From the IMG/VR virus record IMGVR_UViG_3300006917_000075, positions 1 through 35,955 of that record: a stretch of DNA of 35,955 nt. One strand, written 5' to 3'. Both the position numbers and the translations under genes were made by a program. This document shows, one piece after another, positions 2,136-28,454 of the stretch (positions are counted from its first letter, which is position 1; each line of letters opens with the position of its first letter). Origin of the DNA: a virus. The notes below the pieces were generated by a model, which was given only the letters and a program-made list of their open reading frames with translations, was not told the origin of the DNA and did not search any database.

Positions 2136-4219
<2,084 letters not shown>

Positions 4220-4233
<14 letters not shown>

Positions 4234-14907: not shown

Positions 14908-15174
14908 ATGCGCGAGCCAAGGTTCTACGAGAACCCTGCCTGCGCTGAAGTAGGAGGTGACTTTTGGTTTCCGGAAAAAGCCGACGGGTCAATGAATACT
15001 GTAGAGATGGTGATGGCAAAGTCTATTTGCCGTACCTGTCCACACAAAGCTGAATGTGCAGAGTGGGGAATCAACAAAGAAGTACACGGAATCTGGGGCG
15101 GTTTAGCACCACGAGAACGTGAATATATTAGACGAGACAATAAAATAAAACTGAGGGAGGAAGACGTTGCTTGA
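14908..15174 (+). CDS. WhiB-family Fe-S transcription regulator
   Basis: An 88-residue protein with the complete Wbl layout: C12 (PACAEVGGDFWFPE), C41-x2-C44-x5-C50 (ICRTCPHKAEC), and the GIWGG turn (residues 61-65) followed by a charged APRERE tail that contacts DNA. The four cysteines hold a 4Fe-4S cluster sensitive to nitric oxide or oxygen. WhiB proteins bind the host sigma factor region 4 and occur in Actinobacteria and their phages, so this gene is the strongest host clue. It probably redirects host transcription or blocks superinfection, as known for phage WhiB (TM4 WhiBTM4). It overlaps the helicase gene by 8 bases. Confidence 0.95.
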   Translation: MREPRFYENPACAEVGGDFWFPEKADGSMNTVEMVMAKSICRTCPHKAECAEWGINKEVHGIWGGLAPREREYIRRDNKIKLREEDVA

Positions 15175-16045
15175 TCTACAACGTGCGTGGGGAACTGTCC
15201 TCACGAAAGCAACGCCTCTTCCTGATGTATGGACTGCGCTCGCAGAGAAGCAGGTGAAGTTCCGTAGGGGACAAGTCTGTATGGTAGCTGCAGCGCCTAA
15301 CGCTGGTAAGTCTATGTTCGCACTTATCTATGCAGTAAAGGCACAAGTACCTACGCTGTTCTTTTCAGCAGATACTGATACCACTACTGTGATGATGAGA
15401 GCAGCAGCTCACGCGAGTGGGCATAACCAAGTAAACGTCGAACAGAATCTATCTTCTGATTCGCACTACTACGACAAGCACTTCGATAAGTTAAAACATA
15501 TCAAGTGGGTCTTTGACTCTAGTCCGTCACTCGATGATATCGAGTTAGAGATTAAGGCATACGTAGAGTTGTACGGCCAAGCCCCTGAGTTGATCATCAT
15601 AGATAACCTTATGAATGTAGCTGCAGAGACAGACAACGAATGGGCTGGGCTTCGTGCAATTATGATGGAGCTTCACGATATGGCACGTAAGACTGAAGCC
15701 TGCGTACTGGTACTGCACCACGTCAGTGAGCAGTCAGAGTATGGCTCACCTAGTGAACCGCCAGCACGTCGTGCTATCCACGGTAAGGTCAGTCAGTTAC
15801 CTGCCTTGATACTTACACTGGGCTACAACCCAGTCACTGCTGAGTTAAAGATTGCTGCGGTGAAGAACCGCTTTGGTCCACACGCAGCAGATGGCAAGGA
15901 CTATGCCATACTCCTGGTCAACTATGGTGCCTGTCAGATATCTGATAAGAACGCCTACGGAGCAATGCTCCAGCACGATGCACGGTACGGGTATACTGGT
16001 AATTACATACCAGAGGATGAGTATGGACACGAGGTTGCTGTATGA
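15167..16045 (+). CDS. DnaB-like RecA-fold helicase/ATPase
   Basis: A 292-residue protein with TTG start in an 8-base overlap, ribosome site GAGGGAGGAAG. Walker A is APNAGKSM (residues ~43-50) and Walker B is LIIIDNL (142-148); a later LVLHHVSEQS is the arginine-finger/sensor-like stretch of the RecA fold, and a RAIHGKVSQLPALILTL strand follows. The N-terminal domain of full-length DnaB is absent, so it resembles the single-domain RadA/KaiC-type or phage DnaB-like helicases. It sits in the same operon as the split primase, so a replicative helicase role is likely. Confidence 0.85.
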   Translation: MLDLQRAWGTVLTKATPLPDVWTALAEKQVKFRRGQVCMVAAAPNAGKSMFALIYAVKAQVPTLFFSADTDTTTVMMRAAAHASGHNQVNVEQNLSSDSHYYDKHFDKLKHIKWVFDSSPSLDDIELEIKAYVELYGQAPELIIIDNLMNVAAETDNEWAGLRAIMMELHDMARKTEACVLVLHHVSEQSEYGSPSEPPARRAIHGKVSQLPALILTLGYNPVTAELKIAAVKNRFGPHAADGKDYAILLVNYGACQISDKNAYGAMLQHDARYGYTGNYIPEDEYGHEVAV

Positions 16046-17705: not shown

Positions 17706-17828
17706 ATGCCAGTACCAGGCGGAGAAATCACAAGCACAGAAACGTGGAGCGAAGCCCCAGTCGAAGAAGTAGTAGAAGCAGTAGAAGAGGAGTTGCCAAG
17801 TGAGCCTGACACTATTCAAGAGGATTGA
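17706..17828 (+). CDS. Small acidic peptide (40 aa)
   Basis: A 40-residue protein, very acidic: about 13 Glu/Asp and no Lys or Arg, for example EEVVEAVEEELPSEPDTIQE. It starts right after the previous stop. Highly acidic small phage proteins sometimes mimic DNA to block host restriction or nucleoid proteins (for example Ocr); the size here is much smaller, so that is only a possibility. It overlaps the next gene by 29 bases. Confidence 0.5.
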   Translation: MPVPGGEITSTETWSEAPVEEVVEAVEEELPSEPDTIQED

Positions 17829-18027
17829 TATTGATGTTGACTGGTACTTCACAGCAGTATCAGTAGGCTTTACGTTACACAGACGTGGCTTCCAGTTGTC
17901 ACTTGTCTTCTTTGATATTAGCTTTTACTACATCAGTCCTAAGTACAGAGCTGAGATTGATGAACGAATCAAGGCTGCCAAGGCGATTGTCCACGCTATG
18001 GAAGAAGAGCAGTGGTACGAAGGATGA
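17800..18027 (+). CDS. Hypothetical protein (75 aa, GTG start)
   Basis: A 75-residue protein with GTG start after the ribosome site GAGGAG. The central part (IDIDVDWYFTAVSVGFTLHRRGFQLSLVFFDISFYYI) alternates polar and aromatic residues and reads as a beta-sheet rather than a membrane helix; the end is a charged helix (ERIKAAKAIVHAMEEEQ). It overlaps the acidic ORF by 29 bases and the next gene by 4. No family recognised. Confidence 0.65.
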   Translation: MSLTLFKRIDIDVDWYFTAVSVGFTLHRRGFQLSLVFFDISFYYISPKYRAEIDERIKAAKAIVHAMEEEQWYEG

Positions 18028-18191: not shown

Positions 18192-18340
18192 TCTGTCAGC
18201 CTTGTATAGATGCAGGCGAATATAATCGCTTGAATCAGTTAAAACTTAGCGAAGCACATCACGAACAATGCGAGGGGTGCGTATGCCAGCACAAGACTGG
18301 TCCAGGGTACGTAAGGCGGGAAAGTTCAAAGGCAAAGTAG
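18188..18340 (+). CDS. Small zinc-finger-like protein (50 aa)
   Basis: A 50-residue protein in an ATGA overlap with cysteines C3-x2-C6 and a C28-x2-C31-x-C33-x-H35 cluster (QCEGCVCQHK), separated by a helix containing SEAHH. The pattern of CxxC, then H..C..C.C.H, suggests one or two zinc sites. It overlaps the primase zinc-domain gene by 58 bases, so that stretch codes in two frames. Function unknown. Confidence 0.6.
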   Translation: MICQPCIDAGEYNRLNQLKLSEAHHEQCEGCVCQHKTGPGYVRRESSKAK

Positions 18341-18660
18341 ATGCCAACGATATCCCGATAGATGCCATCGTCAGGTTCTTTGGTGGTGAAGTAAGAGAAG
18401 GTAAGTCAGCCAGCGTACGGTGCTGCTTACACTCAGACAGTAGAAGGTCTGCTGTTATGAACACGTACGACAACTTGTACTACTGCCATACCTGCGGTAA
18501 GGGTGGTAATGCAGCTAACCTAGTGTGCATACTAGAGAACTTGGAGTTTAACGATGGCCTCAAACGTGCAGTCGAAATTGCAGCTGGAAGCGGCGCAGCG
18601 ATACGCACAACAAATAAGTCCGGAGGCTCTCGTCGCACTCTCAGAACGTGGGATCTCTGA
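18283..18660 (+). CDS. DNA primase zinc-binding (CHC2) subunit
   Basis: A 125-residue protein covering the N-terminal zinc domain of DnaG-type primases: VDANDIPIDAIVRFFGG, then VRCCLHSDSRRSA (C48, H50), LYYCHTCGKGGNAANLV (C68, C71), and LEFNDGLKRAVEIA. The domain recognises the template start site and lets primase begin synthesis. The family homology ends near residue 100; the last ~20 residues are likely just the frame running to its stop at 18660. The TOPRIM half starts at 18554 in the +1 frame. The ATG at 18283 is taken rather than 18268 because it gives the usual short lead-in; both are possible. Confidence 0.85.
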   Translation: MPAQDWSRVRKAGKFKGKVDANDIPIDAIVRFFGGEVREGKSASVRCCLHSDSRRSAVMNTYDNLYYCHTCGKGGNAANLVCILENLEFNDGLKRAVEIAAGSGAAIRTTNKSGGSRRTLRTWDL

Positions 18661-19204
18661 GGAGATAGCTGCGCTCTATATGCTCGGTAGCGTGACTGAT
18701 CCTATGAATGGTCACGAGATGCACGATGGGTGGATATCTATTCCATACATCACTGCGATGAACCACTGCGTAGGCTTTAAGTTCCGTAGGTTAGATGATG
18801 GTAAGCCTAAGTACGGTAGCCCTACTGGGCAGAAGGCTCACCTCTATAACGTTACTGATACCACCATTTTGAGTAAGCACATCGTGGTCTGCGAAGGTGA
18901 GCTGGACACAGTCATAGTCTCAGGTGTCCTTGGTATCCCAGCAGTGGGTGTACCTGGAGTGCAGGCTTGGAAGCCACACTTTGCTAAGTTGCTCAACGGT
19001 TATGACACTGTCTACATCGTAGGAGATAACGACGTGAAAGAAGATGGCACCAACCCAGGTGCTGAGTTCTCTAAGCGCGTGGCATCCGAGGTTCTTAACG
19101 GAACTATTGTTACACTTCCTCCTAATATGGACATCAATGACTACTACTTAGCCTATGGAGCGGAAGCGACAAAGACTTTGCTGGTAGGTGAGGCGATTGG
19201 ATAA
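18554..19204 (+). CDS. DNA primase TOPRIM (catalytic) subunit
   Basis: A 216-residue protein with the RNA-polymerase/TOPRIM core of DnaG-type primases: an entry helix with ISPEALVALSERGISEE and LYMLG, a strand region GWISIPYIT and VGFKFRRLDDGKPKY, then TOPRIM motif CEGELDTVI (E114) and YIVGDNDVKEDG (D158, D160). It synthesises RNA primers on single-strand DNA. Its own ribosome site GGAG lies at 18543-18546, 7 bases before the ATG, inside the zinc-subunit gene. The two parts together make one primase, but as two polypeptides in different frames (107-base overlap). Confidence 0.87.
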   Translation: MASNVQSKLQLEAAQRYAQQISPEALVALSERGISEEIAALYMLGSVTDPMNGHEMHDGWISIPYITAMNHCVGFKFRRLDDGKPKYGSPTGQKAHLYNVTDTTILSKHIVVCEGELDTVIVSGVLGIPAVGVPGVQAWKPHFAKLLNGYDTVYIVGDNDVKEDGTNPGAEFSKRVASEVLNGTIVTLPPNMDINDYYLAYGAEATKTLLVGEAIG

Positions 19205-19210
19205 GAATGA

Positions 19211-19600
19211 ATGGCAACAGATGATACAGACTTTGCATACTATGGGCTTTCACATCTTAGAGATCAACGTCGAACAGGAGACACTACTAATATGTCCAAC
19301 AGCAACCCGCTCGTAGACCATCTAGCAGTTACTGGTTACCGCGCTAGCGGTGTATCTACTGAAGACCTTACGTCTTTCATTGAATCCTTTGCATCGCTTC
19401 GTGCTTCCCGTGTGCGTGGAGTGGGAGCAGACCAGTATGCAATAGCACAAGGACAGAAGTTCGAGTCCTTTACTGTGGCAGATACCATTAGAGAACTGAT
19501 TGAAGAGCTGGCAGATGCTAGTAATTACATAGACTTCCTTGCCATTAAGTTACTTAACTTACAACACACTATAGATTTGGTGCTACCTGACTGTGACTGA
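19211..19600 (+). CDS. Conserved actinophage protein with MazG-like helices
   Basis: A 129-residue protein. The conserved core runs from NPLVDHLAVTGYRASGVSTE through SRVRGVGADQYA and QKFESFTVADTIRELIEELA to DASNYIDFLAIKLL. RVRG.G..QY, QKFE and EELAD..NY are signatures of a small phage family with MazG-like acidic helices; MazG proteins hydrolyse nucleotide triphosphates. Activity here is not proven. The start may instead be ATG 19292 (AGGAGA upstream), where homologous proteins would begin; the first 27 residues have no recognisable pattern. Confidence 0.72.
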   Translation: MATDDTDFAYYGLSHLRDQRRTGDTTNMSNSNPLVDHLAVTGYRASGVSTEDLTSFIESFASLRASRVRGVGADQYAIAQGQKFESFTVADTIRELIEELADASNYIDFLAIKLLNLQHTIDLVLPDCD

Positions 19601-20225
19601 GATACATCCATCCATATATGACATCGTACCTAGCGTAGCTAGTACTGTGCATAAGAGTTACAAGAAGTTCGTTGAGCGTGATGACGTTAAGCAGGAGTGC
19701 CTGCACTGGGCGCTGACTCGTGCTGACTATATCAACGAGCAGTTGGGTGAAGAGAATGTAGAACAACGCAGACATAACGAGCAGAAGATTGCGTGGCAGA
19801 TGAAGCGTGCTGCTGAGCGTTACTGTCGTAAGGAGAAGGCTACTAAGTCTGGCTATCAGTTAGGTGATGAAGCCTACTATCAGAGCGCTACCTTAGGTCA
19901 ACTACTACCCTTTGTTATTGCATCAGTACTAGACGGTACTGTGCTAGAGCAGGCTCAAGAGATGATCCGTGATGGGCAACCGAAGGGTTCGTCAAGCCCT
20001 GCTGAAGGTGGCAACCTACTGGCTATGCTCATCGATATCAAAAGTGCGTACGAAGATTTGAATGAGAAGGACCAGAAGATACTGGCACTGCGTTACCACG
20101 AGAACCTAACGCTAGCGCAGATAGGTGCAGCACTAGAGTGTCACTTCACTACAGCAGACCGCAGGGTTAACCACGCTATGCGTGAGCTGAACAATAAACT
20201 AGGTGGAGCAAGTCCATACCAGTGA
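19593..20225 (+). CDS. Sigma-70-like RNA polymerase factor
   Basis: A 210-residue protein with GTG start. The N-terminal part (VASTVHKSYKKFVERDDVKQ; NEQKIAWQMKRAAERYCRKE) resembles sigma region 2. The C-terminal part (LNEKDQKILALRYHENLTLA, then QIGAALECHFTTADRRVNHA) is a good region 4 helix-turn-helix: L..K.Q.IL.LRY.E.LTL..IG..L......A..R...A...L. A weak region between fits a phage sigma-like factor rather than a full housekeeping sigma. With the WhiB protein, which binds sigma region 4, it points to control of phage late transcription. Confidence 0.75.
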   Translation: MTEIHPSIYDIVPSVASTVHKSYKKFVERDDVKQECLHWALTRADYINEQLGEENVEQRRHNEQKIAWQMKRAAERYCRKEKATKSGYQLGDEAYYQSATLGQLLPFVIASVLDGTVLEQAQEMIRDGQPKGSSSPAEGGNLLAMLIDIKSAYEDLNEKDQKILALRYHENLTLAQIGAALECHFTTADRRVNHAMRELNNKLGGASPYQ

Positions 20226-21994: not shown

Positions 21995-22402
21995 TCAGAC
22001 TATATCACAGATATTGCCAATGATCCATTCAACTACGGGAACTGCCACGGCGTTTCCTACCTGACGATAGCGTGTTGAATCAGCGCACTCAGCAGTCCAG
22101 TCATCAGGAAAACCTTGCAGTCTCTCGCACTCTACTGGGGTTAGCCTTCTAATAGGTACTTCAGACTTAACTACGTAAGGAACTCTTGCCCCTCCTGTTC
22201 CCCAGTAAGTGGCTACTGTTGGAGAATACTTATCGTAGAATCTCGTATCGTCAACGCGGGTAGCCTCAAAGATCAGAACAGTTGCTCTTGCTTCAGCTGT
22301 ATTATCAAATGCGTTCAATGTAGGACACACTCCTCCCTCGATCCAGGTTTCATAGTCTTCATTGGTCTGCGCTCTCCGGCTTTTGACGTACCACATTTTC
22401 AA
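21995..22402 (-). CDS. C5 cytosine DNA methyltransferase, C-terminal part (separate ORF)
   Basis: A 135-residue protein with TTG start in a TTGA overlap, or ATG two codons later. The first ~90 residues (WYVKSRRAQTNEDYETWIEG; PTLNAFDNTAEARATVLIFE) belong to the target-recognition region, and the end has motif IX, RRLTPVECERLQGFPDDW, and motif X, YRQVGNAVAVPVVEWI. It lacks the catalytic motifs, which are in the ORF at 22399-23031. The two parts are probably needed together, as in the two-subunit M.AquI enzyme. The frame is -1 relative to the upstream ORF. Confidence 0.85.
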   Translation of the reverse strand: MKMWYVKSRRAQTNEDYETWIEGGVCPTLNAFDNTAEARATVLIFEATRVDDTRFYDKYSPTVATYWGTGGARVPYVVKSEVPIRRLTPVECERLQGFPDDWTAECADSTRYRQVGNAVAVPVVEWIIGNICDIV

Positions 22403-23031
22403 ATGCTTCCTGTAGTAGATCCGGCAACTTCTTGCCGTGACGATTGCTCCTGCGTAACACTCCCTCTGCTGCGGGAACTGTTAAATAGTACTTCTGCTGG
22501 ACTGGTTGAGTTTGGATCACGTCTTCCAACGACGAAGACACGCTTGCGCCGTTGGGGTACTCCGAAGTACTGAGCATCAAGCACGCGCCAGGCAACAGAA
22601 TACCCGAGGTCTGCCATCGTCCCGAGTACGACAGCAAAGTCTCCTCCTTCGTTAGAGGTAAGCAGACCAGGGACGTTTTCGATGATGAACCACTCGCTTT
22701 GCGTTTCTTCCACAAGTCTTGCAGCTTCCCAGAATAACCCGCTTCTTGCGCCAGCAAGACCAGCCCTCTTGCCAGCGACGCTGAGGTCTTGGCAGGGAAA
22801 TCCTCCTGTAATAATTCCTTTGCCTGGTGTAAATCCTGCTTCAATTAAATCACTCCCCTTTACGGTAGTTATATCGTTAAATTGTTTGGTATCAGGAAAG
22901 TGTTTCGCTAATACTTTATTGCAGTTCTTATCTATCTCTACCGAGGCTACGACTTTCACTCCTCGTCGTTGCATAGCAAGGTCAAACCCTCCGATCCCTG
23001 CAAAGAGGGATACTCCCGTTAGGTTACTCAT
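22399..23031 (-). CDS. C5 cytosine DNA methyltransferase, catalytic N-terminal part
   Basis: A 210-residue protein with motif I SLFAGIGGFDLAM (residues 8-20), motif IV GGFPCQDLSVAGKRAGL with catalytic C80, motif VI IENVPGLL (117-124) and motif VIII VPQRRKRVFVVG (158-169). It methylates cytosine C5, probably to mask the phage DNA from host restriction. The start at 23031 is chosen because it overlaps the previous stop (TGATG); an upstream extension to 23070 lies in another gene. The ORF stops before the usual motifs IX and X; those are in the next ORF. Another open frame (22359-22844) covers most of the same DNA. Confidence 0.9.
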   Translation of the reverse strand: MSNLTGVSLFAGIGGFDLAMQRRGVKVVASVEIDKNCNKVLAKHFPDTKQFNDITTVKGSDLIEAGFTPGKGIITGGFPCQDLSVAGKRAGLAGARSGLFWEAARLVEETQSEWFIIENVPGLLTSNEGGDFAVVLGTMADLGYSVAWRVLDAQYFGVPQRRKRVFVVGRRDPNSTSPAEVLFNSSRSRGSVTQEQSSRQEVAGSTTGSI

Positions 23032-23302
23032 CAGTACCAGCCTCGCTTGTGGTGGGCGAGAGCGCGGCACGCAGATCCTCGATAGCGGTGTTCAATGTAT
23101 CGTAGACCGTGAAGGATTTGAAGTTCAGGCTGTCCACTACGCTCTCCAAGGAGCTGAGCAATTCCATAAGCCGAACTTCGTTTGTTGTCGGCAAGGTGGT
23201 CAAACCTGCTTTCACGGGTCCATAGGGTGACAAGGCACGCAACTTCTTTTCTCGAATATCCGAGAGCGCGACTATATTCTCTTGCGATTCGTTTGTTCTC
23301 AC
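23024..23302 (-). CDS. Possible overlapping protein (92 aa) inside the transglycosylase gene
   Basis: A 92-residue ORF starting with GTG in a GTGA overlap with the 23299-23583 gene and a GGAGGAG ribosome site. It lies almost wholly inside the transglycosylase gene in a different frame. The sequence looks protein-like: a LSPYGPVKAGL turn, a helix (RLMELLSSLESVVDSL), VYDTLNTAIEDLRAALS and an acidic end. It overlaps the methyltransferase start by 8 bases, like several true pairs here. No homologue is recognised, so it might be a shadow of the transglycosylase. Confidence 0.45.
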   Translation of the reverse strand: MRTNESQENIVALSDIREKKLRALSPYGPVKAGLTTLPTTNEVRLMELLSSLESVVDSLNFKSFTVYDTLNTAIEDLRAALSPTTSEAGTDE

Positions 23303-23441
23303 GCTTCTCCTCCATTGTAGCCTTGGTTCGTGCTTTCATTACCGGCTTCTCCGGTACGTGCAGCGGTGGCAACGGGTCGTGTATCCACACCGCTAGTAGT
23401 CCCGTTAATATCAAGCCACTTACGACCTTGCGCTTCGTCAT
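23031..23441 (-). CDS. Lytic transglycosylase (SLT/goose-lysozyme-like fold)
   Basis: A 136-residue protein. Residues 5-20 (KVVSGLILTGLLAVWI) are a signal/anchor, 30-60 a charged helix, and 60-136 the catalytic domain: YSRKEVACLVTLWTRESRFD with catalytic E77, NKRSSAYGIAQLL, QILHGLRYIEHRY and a final HHKRGWY. This matches actinobacterial SLT domain proteins (W..ES.....A.N..S.AYGI.Q ... Q...GL.YI..RY...C.A..H....WY), which cut the glycan strand. It has a good ribosome site (GGAGAGGGAGAA) in another gene's coding sequence. Its role may be wall opening for exit or entry. Other starts (23339) would lack the anchor. Confidence 0.82.
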   Translation of the reverse strand: MTKRKVVSGLILTGLLAVWIHDPLPPLHVPEKPVMKARTKATMEEKRENKRIAREYSRALGYSRKEVACLVTLWTRESRFDHLADNKRSSAYGIAQLLGERSGQPELQILHGLRYIEHRYRGSACRALAHHKRGWY

Positions 23442-23583
23442 TCGCCTTCTCCCTCTCCAGCAGCTCCTTGTAAGCGTCCGGATATAGTTGTGCTAGTTTG
23501 ACTAGAGCACGATCTCGCGCCCGTCTATAATTACGTTGGCGTACCGCCATATTTGCAGCGGTAGCTAGCCTTCTCTCGCTCAC
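23299..23583 (-). CDS. Hypothetical helical protein (94 aa, GTG start)
   Basis: A 94-residue protein with GTG start in a GTGA overlap. Residues 12-55 are a very charged helix (RQRNYRRARDRALVKLAQLY; ELLEREKANDEAQG) with many Arg; the remainder (DTRPVATAARTGEAG; NQGYNGGEA) is flexible. Proteins with R.RNYRRAR.RAL..LA..YP..Y..L...EK occur in actinophages; the function is unknown. Its last 143 bases overlap the transglycosylase gene in another frame. Confidence 0.72.
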   Translation of the reverse strand: MSERRLATAANMAVRQRNYRRARDRALVKLAQLYPDAYKELLEREKANDEAQGRKWLDINGTTSGVDTRPVATAARTGEAGNESTNQGYNGGEA

Positions 23584-24438: not shown

Positions 24439-25044
24439 TTAGGCCTTACGCATAGGCATAAGTAGTGCAGCCCATTCGATTTTATCGTGCGGAATTGTCA
24501 CCTTAATAGGCTTACGCTCTCCGGAGAATTCCATAGTAAGCATAGCGCCGGCCTTATTAGAGGTAGGTACCTTGCCAAAATCTGCCATATAAGTAGGGTT
24601 AAACGACACCTCTCCAATAGCTACGCTCTCGCTAGGGATAAGGTGCTCATATGGCGGGAACTTACCGGTGCCTAATTGAATCGAAAGGCTAGTGCCACCG
24701 ATAGCCACGCTTAGAGTATCTCCCGCACGCGTAAAGGTGATATCCCTGCTCACTCTCTCACTCTTAATAGCTGCGAGGATATTCTTAAGATCCGATAAGC
24801 GGATAGCGCTAGGCGATAGTTCGCTCTCACTCTCTACTGTAAGCACGCCGGCGATTAGGCGGTACCTATCGCTCGCGCACGCTTTAACCTTGCCACCGGT
24901 GGCCGATAGGTAAACCGCTGCAAGGCTATCCACCGCATTCTTACCCTTATCCGCTGCAATAGCTGCGCCGGTGAGTAAGTCTGCAATATCTGCAGCGCTT
25001 ACGGTAATGCTCTCTAGTGTCTGCTCTCTTACTATTGTGTCCAT
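24439..25044 (-). CDS. DNA polymerase III beta sliding clamp-like protein (short)
   Basis: A 201-residue protein with clamp signatures in order: IAADKGKNAVDSLAAVYLSA, KACASDRYRLIAGVL (in DnaN: ..A.DR.RL....), GTGKFPPYEHLIP (in DnaN: G.FP.Y..LIP) and SFNPTYMADFGKV, ending PIKVTI and WAALLMPMR (in DnaN: .P...LIMPMR). Full-length clamps are ~370 residues; this one has the last two thirds of a clamp, about two of three domains. It would hold a polymerase on DNA. No DNA polymerase gene is seen here, so the host polymerase is probably used. The start at 25044 is chosen (AGAGAGAGC ribosome site); the longer ORF runs through a hairpin. Confidence 0.82.
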   Translation of the reverse strand: MDTIVREQTLESITVSAADIADLLTGAAIAADKGKNAVDSLAAVYLSATGGKVKACASDRYRLIAGVLTVESESELSPSAIRLSDLKNILAAIKSERVSRDITFTRAGDTLSVAIGGTSLSIQLGTGKFPPYEHLIPSESVAIGEVSFNPTYMADFGKVPTSNKAGAMLTMEFSGERKPIKVTIPHDKIEWAALLMPMRKA

Positions 25045-26594: not shown

Positions 26595-28454
26595 GTGGCA
26601 GAGAATAGCGCTGATATAGCCAAGAGAATTATTCTTGGCTGTGTGGCAGAAGGTATGACCATTGACGCCGCTTGCGGTTCAGCCGGTAAGTCTATGAAGA
26701 CTTATGAGTACTACCGTCGCACCGACAAGGTTTTTGCAGATAAGGTAGATCGTACTAGGTTAGGTCTGAAGGAAAAGTCCTTCGCCTCCGGCGATGTTCA
26801 CGATATCGACTTCGTCGAGTTCAGACAGCGATTCCTGCACAGCAAGACCTTCCCACATCAGAAGAACCTCATAGATGTGATTGAGGGTAGAGAACCTTCG
26901 TGGCTCCATCCCAGTATGAAGTACGAACCGGGACTTGCGGCAAACCGTGTTCTGATTAACATTCCGCCAAACCACGCCAAGTCGATTACGGTCACCGTCG
27001 ACTACGTCACGTGGAAGGTAGCTCAGAACCCCAACTTCCGAGTTCTGATTGTATCCCAGACGCAGCAGTTAGCTGCCGACTTTCTCTACGCCATCAAGCA
27101 GCGATTGACGCATCCTATGTATGCAGACCTTCAAAGCGCTTATGCTGCTGGTGTAGGGTTTAATTCCAAGACCGCTTCCTGGCAGGCAACCCGCGTCACC
27201 TTCGGTGATGAGCTTCGTGAGTCTTCTGAAAAGGATCCGAACATCGAGGCCGTCGGTATCGGCGGTCAGATTTACGGCAAGCGTGCCGATATGATTATTG
27301 TCGATGACGCGGTCACCTTAAAGAACGCTAACGAGTTTGAGAAGCAAATCCGTTGGTTGACGCAGGACGTACGTTCTCGTCTTAACCCTACTGGTAAGCT
27401 AATCGTTATTGGTACTAGAGTTGCATCCGTTGACTTGTACCGTGAACTCCGTTCCGAAGACCGCTACCCAGGCGGTCTGGTTCCGTGGAAGTATCTGGCG
27501 ATGCCAGCCCTTCTGGAAATTGATGAAGACCCCGACAAGTGGGTTACCCTCTGGCCTAAGTCAGATGCTCCCTTTGATGGACAAGAAGAATCCGATAAGG
27601 ACGAGGACGGCTTGTACCCACGTTGGTCTGGTCGTAACTTATACAACGAACGTCAAGCTATGGATGCAAGTACCTGGGCGCTGGTCTACCAGCAACAGGA
27701 TGTATCCGAGAACGCAGCCTTTGACCCAGTATGTGTTCGTGGCTCGATTGATGGAATGCGTAAGTCAGGTCGTTTAGAACCTGGACACCCAGGACATCCC
27801 AAGGACTTAAGTGGCTTTACCATTATCTGCGGTATGGACCCAGCGATTGTTGGCGATACCGCGGCTATCTGTTACGCGGTAGACCGTGCTAGTAATAAGC
27901 GCTACATCGTAGATGCTATGAAGATTACTAGACCATCCCCTCAGCAGATCCGTGACATTATCCTTAACTGGACTTCGCTCTACTCACCAAGTGAGTGGAT
28001 TATTGAGAAGAACGCTTTTCAGGCTTTCCTTACTCAGGATGAAGGCATTAAACAATTTTTGGCATCCCGTGGCGTTCTATTAAAGGAACACCATACTGGT
28101 TCTAATAAGTGGGACTCAGGCTTCGGTGTTGCATCTATGGCTACCCTCTTCGGTACCAAGCAACACGATGGCAAGCACCACCGAGATAACTTAATACATC
28201 TACCTAGTGACCAGACTGAAAACGTCAAGGCTCTTATCGAGCAGTTGATTACGTGGACACCTACCACTAAGGGTAAGACCGATATGGTGATGGCACTCTG
28301 GTTCTGTGAGATCCGAGCACGCGAGATGCTCAACTACGGCCAGTACGCCACACACCACTTGAAGAATCCGTTTCTTACATCAGCTGAGAAACGTAAGCGA
28401 GTCGTTGTCAATATAGACGAAATGCTCGCTAACCAGAACAAACTATTCGTCTAA
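26595..28454 (+). CDS. terL: Terminase large subunit
   Basis: A 619-residue packaging motor, GTG start after TAGGAGA. An N-terminal helix-turn-helix-like segment (~20-42) is followed by the ATPase: Walker A-like INIPPNHAKSITVTV (residues 121-135), motif VLIVSQTQ, Walker B DMIIVDDAV (232-240) and motif III region VIGTRVAS. The C-terminal nuclease half starts with IICGMDPAIVGDTAAI. It translocates DNA into the prohead and cuts it. No separate small subunit gene is visible just upstream; the N-terminal helix-turn-helix may partly do its job, or the small subunit lies outside the window. Confidence 0.93.
   Translation: MAENSADIAKRIILGCVAEGMTIDAACGSAGKSMKTYEYYRRTDKVFADKVDRTRLGLKEKSFASGDVHDIDFVEFRQRFLHSKTFPHQKNLIDVIEGREPSWLHPSMKYEPGLAANRVLINIPPNHAKSITVTVDYVTWKVAQNPNFRVLIVSQTQQLAADFLYAIKQRLTHPMYADLQSAYAAGVGFNSKTASWQATRVTFGDELRESSEKDPNIEAVGIGGQIYGKRADMIIVDDAVTLKNANEFEKQIRWLTQDVRSRLNPTGKLIVIGTRVASVDLYRELRSEDRYPGGLVPWKYLAMPALLEIDEDPDKWVTLWPKSDAPFDGQEESDKDEDGLYPRWSGRNLYNERQAMDASTWALVYQQQDVSENAAFDPVCVRGSIDGMRKSGRLEPGHPGHPKDLSGFTIICGMDPAIVGDTAAICYAVDRASNKRYIVDAMKITRPSPQQIRDIILNWTSLYSPSEWIIEKNAFQAFLTQDEGIKQFLASRGVLLKEHHTGSNKWDSGFGVASMATLFGTKQHDGKHHRDNLIHLPSDQTENVKALIEQLITWTPTTKGKTDMVMALWFCEIRAREMLNYGQYATHHLKNPFLTSAEKRKRVVVNIDEMLANQNKLFV

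Follow-up and report, generated by a model that had tools for sequence, protein, structure and literature searches.

The DNA analysed here, called the window throughout, is a single IMG/VR phage record of 35,955 bases, both ends of which lie inside genes (Table 1). Its minus strand between 24439 and 25044 holds one intact frame of 201 codons, and the plus strand there is full of stops. An initial annotation had described the product as a sliding clamp of about 200 residues with DnaN motifs, and both points held: DRYRL (aa 59-63) and LLMPMR (aa 194-199) are present together with FPPYEHLIP. When the single sequence was compared with Pfam, E was 0.11 for domain II and 0.025 for domain III, neither of which passes the cut-off. 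The protein matched PDB clamps at E 1.5e-4, a PHROG processivity-factor family at E 1.1e-12 and PHROG 12598 at E 4.6e-14, and EP23p08, a member of the same family, matched DnaN in the PDB at 4.5e-8. An AlphaFold2 model of the window clamp (21 rows; mean pLDDT 76, pTM 0.77), confident over aa 11-130 and not over the last third, was superposed on E. coli beta residues 120-366 with 187 residues aligned (rmsd 2.6, Z 18.6), and its best BFVD match was the REQ2 clamp-like protein of 266 aa (E 3.7e-13). These results indicate that the window protein is a weak-scoring but real homologue of DnaN, the beta clamp, beyond chance.

Table 1 Positions of the clamp gene, its predicted parts and other genes of the window
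Feature	Position	Strand	Details
Short beta-clamp gene (about 1.5 domains by alignment)	25044..24439	minus	201 aa; ATG at 25044, stop 24441-24439
Domain II (predicted), two beta-alpha-beta-beta-beta modules	24631..25011	minus	aa 12-138
SDRYRL, predicted pocket subsite I	24856..24873	minus	aa 58-63; E. coli 172-177
FPPYEHLIP, predicted domain II end and linker side of pocket	24634..24660	minus	aa 129-137; E. coli 241-249, including P242
Third module (predicted), domain III second half only	24442..24630	minus	aa 139-201; with LLMPMR (E. coli 360-365)
Terminase large subunit	26595..28454	plus	transcribed away from the clamp
DnaB-like replicative helicase	15167..16045	plus	phrog_243, E 2.5e-73
Primase, two overlapping frames	18268..19204	plus	zinc part 18268-18660, Toprim part 18554-19204
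Sigma-like protein	19593-20225		

Domain architecture of the short clamp

The protein had been read as two of the three domains of a standard clamp, a count that had to be lowered. Pfam coverage runs over positions 10-115 of 116 in the domain II profile and only over 72-121 of 121 in that of domain III, and in alignments to E. coli DnaN residues ~250-311 are absent from the window clamp. We used two alignments. The first set 14 short clamps, of the present phage and of others, against E. coli DnaN; the second combined 23 short and 24 full-length clamps. In both, the short clamps show domain II, a gap at ~250-311 and a restart at ~312 that continues up to the C-terminal MPMR region, with 10 to 14 residues left of the block 244-311. 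By these alignments, the window clamp is domain II plus the second half of domain III, about 1.5 domains and not two, and keeps 3 of the 6 beta-alpha-beta-beta-beta modules of a beta protomer. Domain I is absent from every short clamp whose start is visible; since L066 and L067, two of the 23 short clamps, run off the contig end and were trimmed to the matched part, this absence holds for the others and not for these two. L065 and L069 were trimmed at the C-terminal side.

In the model, domain II of the window clamp consists of strand 11-16, helix 17-28 and strands 43-69, followed by strand 75-82, helix 83-95 and strands 101-123, with block pLDDT of 81-93 up to aa 130 and 63 for 131-140. The third module is of low model confidence (block pLDDT 36-78). 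The helix of module II-2 is thus retained, and helices stand in both domain II modules. The model of EP23p08, an E. coli-type short clamp (pLDDT 86.5, pTM 0.84), has no helix in module II-2, a DNA-facing helix, and still aligns to DnaN with Z up to 14.1. Both predicted structures match DnaN along their whole length.

A profile search found 27 IMG/VR loci, several of them mutually identical and one identical to the copy in the window. All 27 carry intact frames, of ~195-205 aa from a conserved start, and the short length is a trait of the whole family; a truncated or frameshifted clamp gene is ruled out because the relatives are equally short and their frames intact. Against 7 relatives the dN/dS of the window gene was 0.16-0.29, which places it under purifying selection. 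The annotators of Bcep781 name their copy 'DNA Pol III b subunit fragment', as though such genes were functionless, decaying fragments of a captured dnaN. The low dN/dS, the intact frames of the 27 relatives and the absence of the same half domain in distant phages make this reading of the window gene extremely improbable.

Phage genome and the search for a polymerase

Since the window holds a WhiB gene and a terminase that reached about 44% to Streptomyces phage terminases, its best annotated matches (47% to unannotated uncultured phages), the sequence points to an actinobacterial host. The clamp lies in a minus-strand block near the oppositely oriented terminase, an opposition also found in the related records G004 and G005, and is several kb away from the replication genes. 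Besides helicase and primase, the window encodes a Cas4-like exonuclease. The zinc-finger and Toprim frames of the primase overlap by 107 bases, with the same layout in the related genomes G001 and G005; a programmed frameshift or a two-subunit primase is possible. A DNA methyltransferase is likewise split between two minus-strand ORFs with a 4-base overlap (21995-22402 and 22399-23070), the second being the C-terminal part by eye, and G005 has a methyltransferase ORF of 215 aa. On the minus strand at 23024-23583, a transglycosylase-like ORF (23031-23441) overlaps two other ORFs, and all three have homologues in related phages. A glycosyltransferase-like gene (3172-4233, phrog_13126) stands beside a gene for a collagen-like repeat protein (2467-3162) among genes of unknown function.

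The initial annotation had seen no DNA polymerase gene in the window, allowed that one might lie in the missing segment, and suggested that the clamp captures the host replicase. The first statement stood for the families searched: Pol A, Pol III alpha and Pol B (PF00136) each matched 0 of 11 records, and PF03175 matched 0 of 7 in a search that was itself weak in controls (1 of 14 genomes, none over cut-off). The delta-prime clamp loader family PF13177 also matched 0 of 7 records. For the missing segment we turned to relatives. G001 (38,480 bp) carries a direct terminal repeat of 123 bp, and another record, G003, spans both ends of G005 (40,549 bp), so that G001 and G005 look like closed genomes; in neither did the searches for Pol A, Pol III alpha, Pol B and PF13177 find anything. 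In G004, the gap of the window corresponds to a gene for the major head protein, one with a weak scaffold match and others of unknown families. A polymerase in the missing segment was therefore rejected, since searches of the closed relatives for Pol A, Pol III alpha, Pol B and the weakly controlled PF03175 came back empty. As no polymerase of the searched families was found, the phage presumably uses the host replicase.

The tie proposed between the short clamp and a missing polymerase fared less well. While the window phage lacks the polymerase families searched, a family A polymerase was over cut-off in 4 of 14 short-clamp records, weak in 1 and not found in 9, of which three are possibly incomplete IMG/VR contigs; none of the 14 matched Pol III alpha or Pol B. 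Since short clamps also occur beside a family A polymerase, the presence of the clamp does not track the polymerase, and the link is weak. Capture of the host replicase by the window clamp is possible, and would more likely be by the pocket than by a ring.

We also searched the 54 ORFs of the window for clamp-binding motifs (CBMs) and found no clear excess over shuffled sequences. The loose pentamer occurred once (shuffled mean 1.47) and the loose hexamer twice (1.44); the strict pentamer did not occur, and the strict hexamer occurred once (ORF 17800-18027) against a mean of 0.13, a count reached by 26 of 200 shuffles. The only CBM kept in relatives (4 of 5) lies in a 733-aa protein of unknown function. 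With no CBM excess in the window proteins, the search gave no phage partner for the clamp.

Pocket and ring residues in short clamps

The dimer residues I272, L273, E298 and E304 had no letter in any of the 23 short clamps, the window clamp included, and coverage of the block 244-311 was 0.15-0.21. Under five alignment modes, stray letters at the dimer residues appeared in 0, 0, 0, 1 and 3 of the 23. The same half of domain III is missing from Matteo gp40 and REQ2 gp51, which come from two temperate actinophages. Judged from these alignments, all 23 short clamps lack the part of domain III that bears the dimer interface, its first half.

The pocket of the E. coli clamp that receives CBMs is built of 18 residues in the list given in PMC11139829, and all 18 of these columns were aligned within the retained part. 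In E. coli DnaN plus 14 short clamps, the columns conserved at 90% or more were L155, P242, P363, N320, M362 and R365, all of the pocket; among the 14 short clamps alone there were 7 such columns, 6 of the pocket and the seventh being column 142. As a control for clamp-wide conservation, we restricted the comparison to the 37 columns of the retained part at which at least 90% of 24 full-length clamps agree. Counting a column as kept when half or more of 18 non-redundant short clamps retain it, we found 15 of 15 kept for the pocket and 12 of 22 for the others (Fisher p 0.0019), and mean retention was 0.77 for pocket columns vs 0.45 for the others (rank test p 0.0021). The pocket and other counts were identical across the five alignment modes; stricter cut-offs gave a smaller pocket excess (10/15 vs 6/22, p 0.02; 5/15 vs 1/22, p 0.03). 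The comparison thus indicates that short clamps preferentially retain CBM pocket residues. Single pocket positions vary in several members, and the window clamp differs from E. coli at several of them, e.g., 174, 175, 246 and 247.

The full-length controls were 20/24 gammaproteobacterial and comprised 19 of 80 fetched gammaproteobacterial DnaN, E. coli DnaN and four full-length phage clamps; actinobacterial DnaN was represented by two printed segments from mycobacteria and one other. The short set was chosen for shortness, and of one group of 14 loci L068, L071 and L072 proved full-length and L070 and L073 contig-edge pieces, none of which was counted as short.

Residues that face DNA gave a less uniform picture. 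The pore residue R197 is present in 24 of 24 full-length clamps vs 2-3 of 23 short clamps. K198 is a known DNA contact, reported as 87% identical and 98% similar over 90 species (PMC5042465). In our set it is K in 22 of 24 full-length clamps and, depending on the alignment mode, in 0-8 of 23 short clamps; the second alignment as first made gives K in 1 of 23, and in the first alignment (A4) it is K in 8 of 14 short clamps. The EP23 protein has K at 198 in some alignments, and the window clamp has L/S at 197/198 in five modes and K at 198 in A4. The apparent loss of K198 in short clamps is therefore alignment-dependent and not robust. Helix charges in the short clamps are mixed, with the III-2 helix more positive than in full-length clamps.

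The initial annotation had suggested a PCNA-like trimer of two-domain subunits. A true DNA-encircling ring of new stoichiometry could be such a trimer or an assembly of four three-module subunits, which would restore twelve modules (3 x 4), and it draws on the clamp fold that the model gives across the whole window protein, on the helices kept in both domain II modules and on K198, which may be kept in part of the family. A precedent would be beta*, a two-domain internal product of E. coli dnaN, of which we found no report in the open-access literature among the matches listed. A trimer would need two full domains per subunit where 1.5 are present; the half domain of the interface is missing, nearly all short clamps have lost R197, and the EP23-type relative has no II-2 helix. 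We consider a ring of either kind quite unlikely. With no interface half domain and R197 mostly lost, the PCNA-like trimer in particular is unlikely, and a stand-alone docking pocket fits better.

Labels, origins and gene context of the family

Starting from P0002, a divergent relative, tblastn returned 277 phage records at E<=1, with 240 matched over at least 80% of the length of P0002. The 277 include GenBank/RefSeq twins, near-duplicates, at least 2 bacterial contigs and some full-length phage clamps, among them those of Rhizobium 16-3, AmM-1 and Pthi1. Hosts of phages with such genes include E. coli, Salmonella and Klebsiella. The window clamp itself had no match at E 0.01 in a tblastn search of 50,697 phage records; at E 10 it matched 60 records, the best being Gordonia phages at E about 1, and a scan of bacterial genomes (A1) confirmed no relative.

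PHROG 3007 was matched end to end by 6 of 6 short clamps scanned. Among the best 30 of the 277 rows, 16 were named Pol III beta or beta clamp, 10 RusA-like or Holliday junction resolvase and 4 otherwise. 'RusA-like Holliday junction resolvase' is the label of PHROG 3007, PHROG 12598 and several RefSeq records (NC_016566, NC_013600, NC_021534 and NC_070798 are examples), and the GenBank twins of some resolvase-labelled records read Pol III beta subunit or sliding clamp. When 10 short clamps were scanned against Pfam (E<=1), no RusA family came up; 9 matched clamp families and L049 gave only a chance match. The RusA-like label was rejected on these scans, and since the matches of PHROG 3007 are clamp homologues, we think that the resolvase label is a propagated error. 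As the family already carries annotations, either Pol III beta subunit or resolvase, the gene in itself is no discovery. What deserves specialist attention is the trimming of a half domain, the apparent repetition of this trimming and the selective retention of the pocket. No structure or function study of a short phage clamp, and no report of its binding, oligomeric state or role in infection, was found in open-access full text among the matches listed.

EP23p08 shares 30-34% identity with E. coli beta and 16% with that of M. tuberculosis; for the window clamp the values are 20-24% with mycobacterial beta and 12-13% with E. coli beta. A tree was built from the domain II segment, with 35 rows over 114 columns and five near-copies left out. 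In it, two mycobacterial DnaN grouped with the window clade, Matteo and REQ2 (support 96/94), and the remaining short clamps fell in other places. Four state changes were needed, at least two of them forced by starred branches, and a single clade of all short clamps was rejected (p-AU 0.019). The tree is built on a short segment and has several long branches, with joins of long branches flagged, so we take more than one origin of the short clamps as likely rather than shown. If right, the same cut sites would have been reached independently in different phages.

We read the gene context in 13 annotated phages with a short clamp, picked for spread and not randomly; 11 belong to the 277 records. 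In EP23, Bcep781, Snoke and Shewanella 1/41 the clamp, by itself or together with a single neighbour, lies on the opposite strand from the flanking late genes. In Skate and pYD38-A it belongs to a small ParB-like operon that faces structural genes; in both (Skate, L046, 17476-19080; pYD38-A, L055, 1986-3510) the order is a ParB-like gene, a 57-aa ORF and then the short clamp. The clamps of yong1, Matteo and REQ2 lie in the early region of a temperate phage, that of yong1 between the cII gene and two replication-protein genes. Vibrio 1.087.A, 1.118.B, RLK and PEi21 show contexts outside these three patterns.

This context bears on two functions for a retained pocket. In one, the short clamp would be an adaptor of the phage replisome whose pocket holds host Pol III alpha or the clamp loader and delivers it to the replication proteins of the phage without encircling DNA. 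The window phage, G001 and G005 lack a polymerase of the searched families and a delta-prime clamp loader, the window has a helicase and a primase, and the positions of the yong1, Matteo and REQ2 genes speak in its favour. The adaptor would require a second binding face for a phage partner, and none was identified; the window clamp is distant from the replication genes, short clamps elsewhere sit inside late-gene blocks in several phages, and phages with their own family A polymerase carry them too. On balance the adaptor appears unlikely, and it is the main rival of the decoy discussed below.

In the other, the short clamp would couple replication to late transcription, as T4 gp45 is described to do in PMC9690074, its pocket binding a phage sigma-like factor. 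The window does encode a sigma-like protein, and several short clamps lie amid late genes. The sigma-like protein has no CBM match, and a tracking clamp requires a ring, which leaves this coupling very unlikely.

A proposed pocket-only clamp and its relation to known systems

Our preferred reading, held tentatively and at a little less than an even chance, is that the window clamp is a 'pocket-only' decoy that probably does not encircle DNA and competes with host DnaN for CBM clients. The architecture, its recurrence, the retention of the pocket and the absence of the interface come from sequence and prediction; from them we infer the lack of a ring, the CBM binding and the decoy effect. In this scenario, a phage lineage would have acquired a bacterial beta clamp and retained only the stretch that builds the pocket, i.e., domain II and the second half of domain III, while domain I and the half domain with the dimer interface were discarded and the DNA-facing surface was lost at least in part. 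The product would most likely not be found around DNA. Off DNA, its pocket would hold the CBM tails of host clamp clients, for which Pol III alpha, clamp loader delta, Hda-type regulators, repair polymerases and MutS/MutL are candidates, and competition with host DnaN would shift which clients reach the clamp during infection.

A monomeric mutant of E. coli beta is described as binding DNA, binding delta ~50x tighter than the dimer and being unable to tether Pol III (PMC11139829). Going by this mutant, a pocket without the ring parts would be expected to bind clients without conferring processivity, and since the pocket is kept and much of the ring is lost, the short clamp may seize host replication proteins instead of encircling DNA. 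Several observations speak against the pocket-only decoy: the loss of K198 is not robust, the helix charges are mixed and the window clamp keeps the II-2 helix; moreover, a decoy that absorbs delta or alpha would harm phages dependent on host Pol III. The broader proposal, that phages in actinobacterial and proteobacterial hosts repeatedly and independently pared the clamp to its pocket and used it as a soluble CBM-capturing decoy, seems to us doubtful and rather on the unlikely side.

Waterfoul gp48, a 'sliding clamp', is reported to be toxic on overexpression in M. smegmatis (PMC11797047, PMC10700055). It was rejected as direct evidence, as its gene of 1131 bp encodes a full-length clamp, and it serves as a lead only. 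Mycobacterium abscessus MabR prophages are reported to keep a 'sliding clamp' gene among the genes thought to be expressed in lysogeny (PMC9434293).

If the short clamps are pocket-only, both current readings of them, processivity factor and resolvase, would be wrong. They would form a natural, genetically encoded class of inhibitors for the clamp/client interface, which is a drug target (PMC11139829), and would show which clamp client phages most need to have controlled.

Compared with DnaN (PF00712, PF02767 and PF02768), the window clamp is homologous in domain II and in the latter half of domain III, and has the same fold and CBM pocket. It differs in lacking domain I, the first half of domain III and, with that half, the dimer-interface residues; in the short clamps R197 is lost in nearly all, and K198 varies by alignment. 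The short 'DNA polymerase III beta subunit' proteins of PHROG 3007 and 12598, such as EP23p08, Bcep781 gp15, Skate 41, Gordonia phage Matteo gp40 and Rhodococcus phage REQ2 gp51, are of the same length class and lack the same half domain, whereas the window clade is divergent in sequence. PCNA and T4 gp45 belong to the clamp superfamily and likewise have fewer domains per subunit than DnaN. They have two complete domains each according to PMC9690074, in contrast to the 1.5 of the window clamp, which belongs to the DnaN branch.

A further parallel is offered by the phage inhibitors of the clamp or its loader, with which the window clamp would share interference at the clamp/client interface. 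Among them, N4 gp8 acts against delta, and Gp168 is presumably from phage Twort. Gp168 bound to a beta clamp is the subject of PDB entry 7evp. Such inhibitors bind the clamp or the loader, whereas the window clamp would be a stand-alone copy of the pocket; if this is true, a pocket made by the phage would mirror the phage inhibitors that plug the host clamp.
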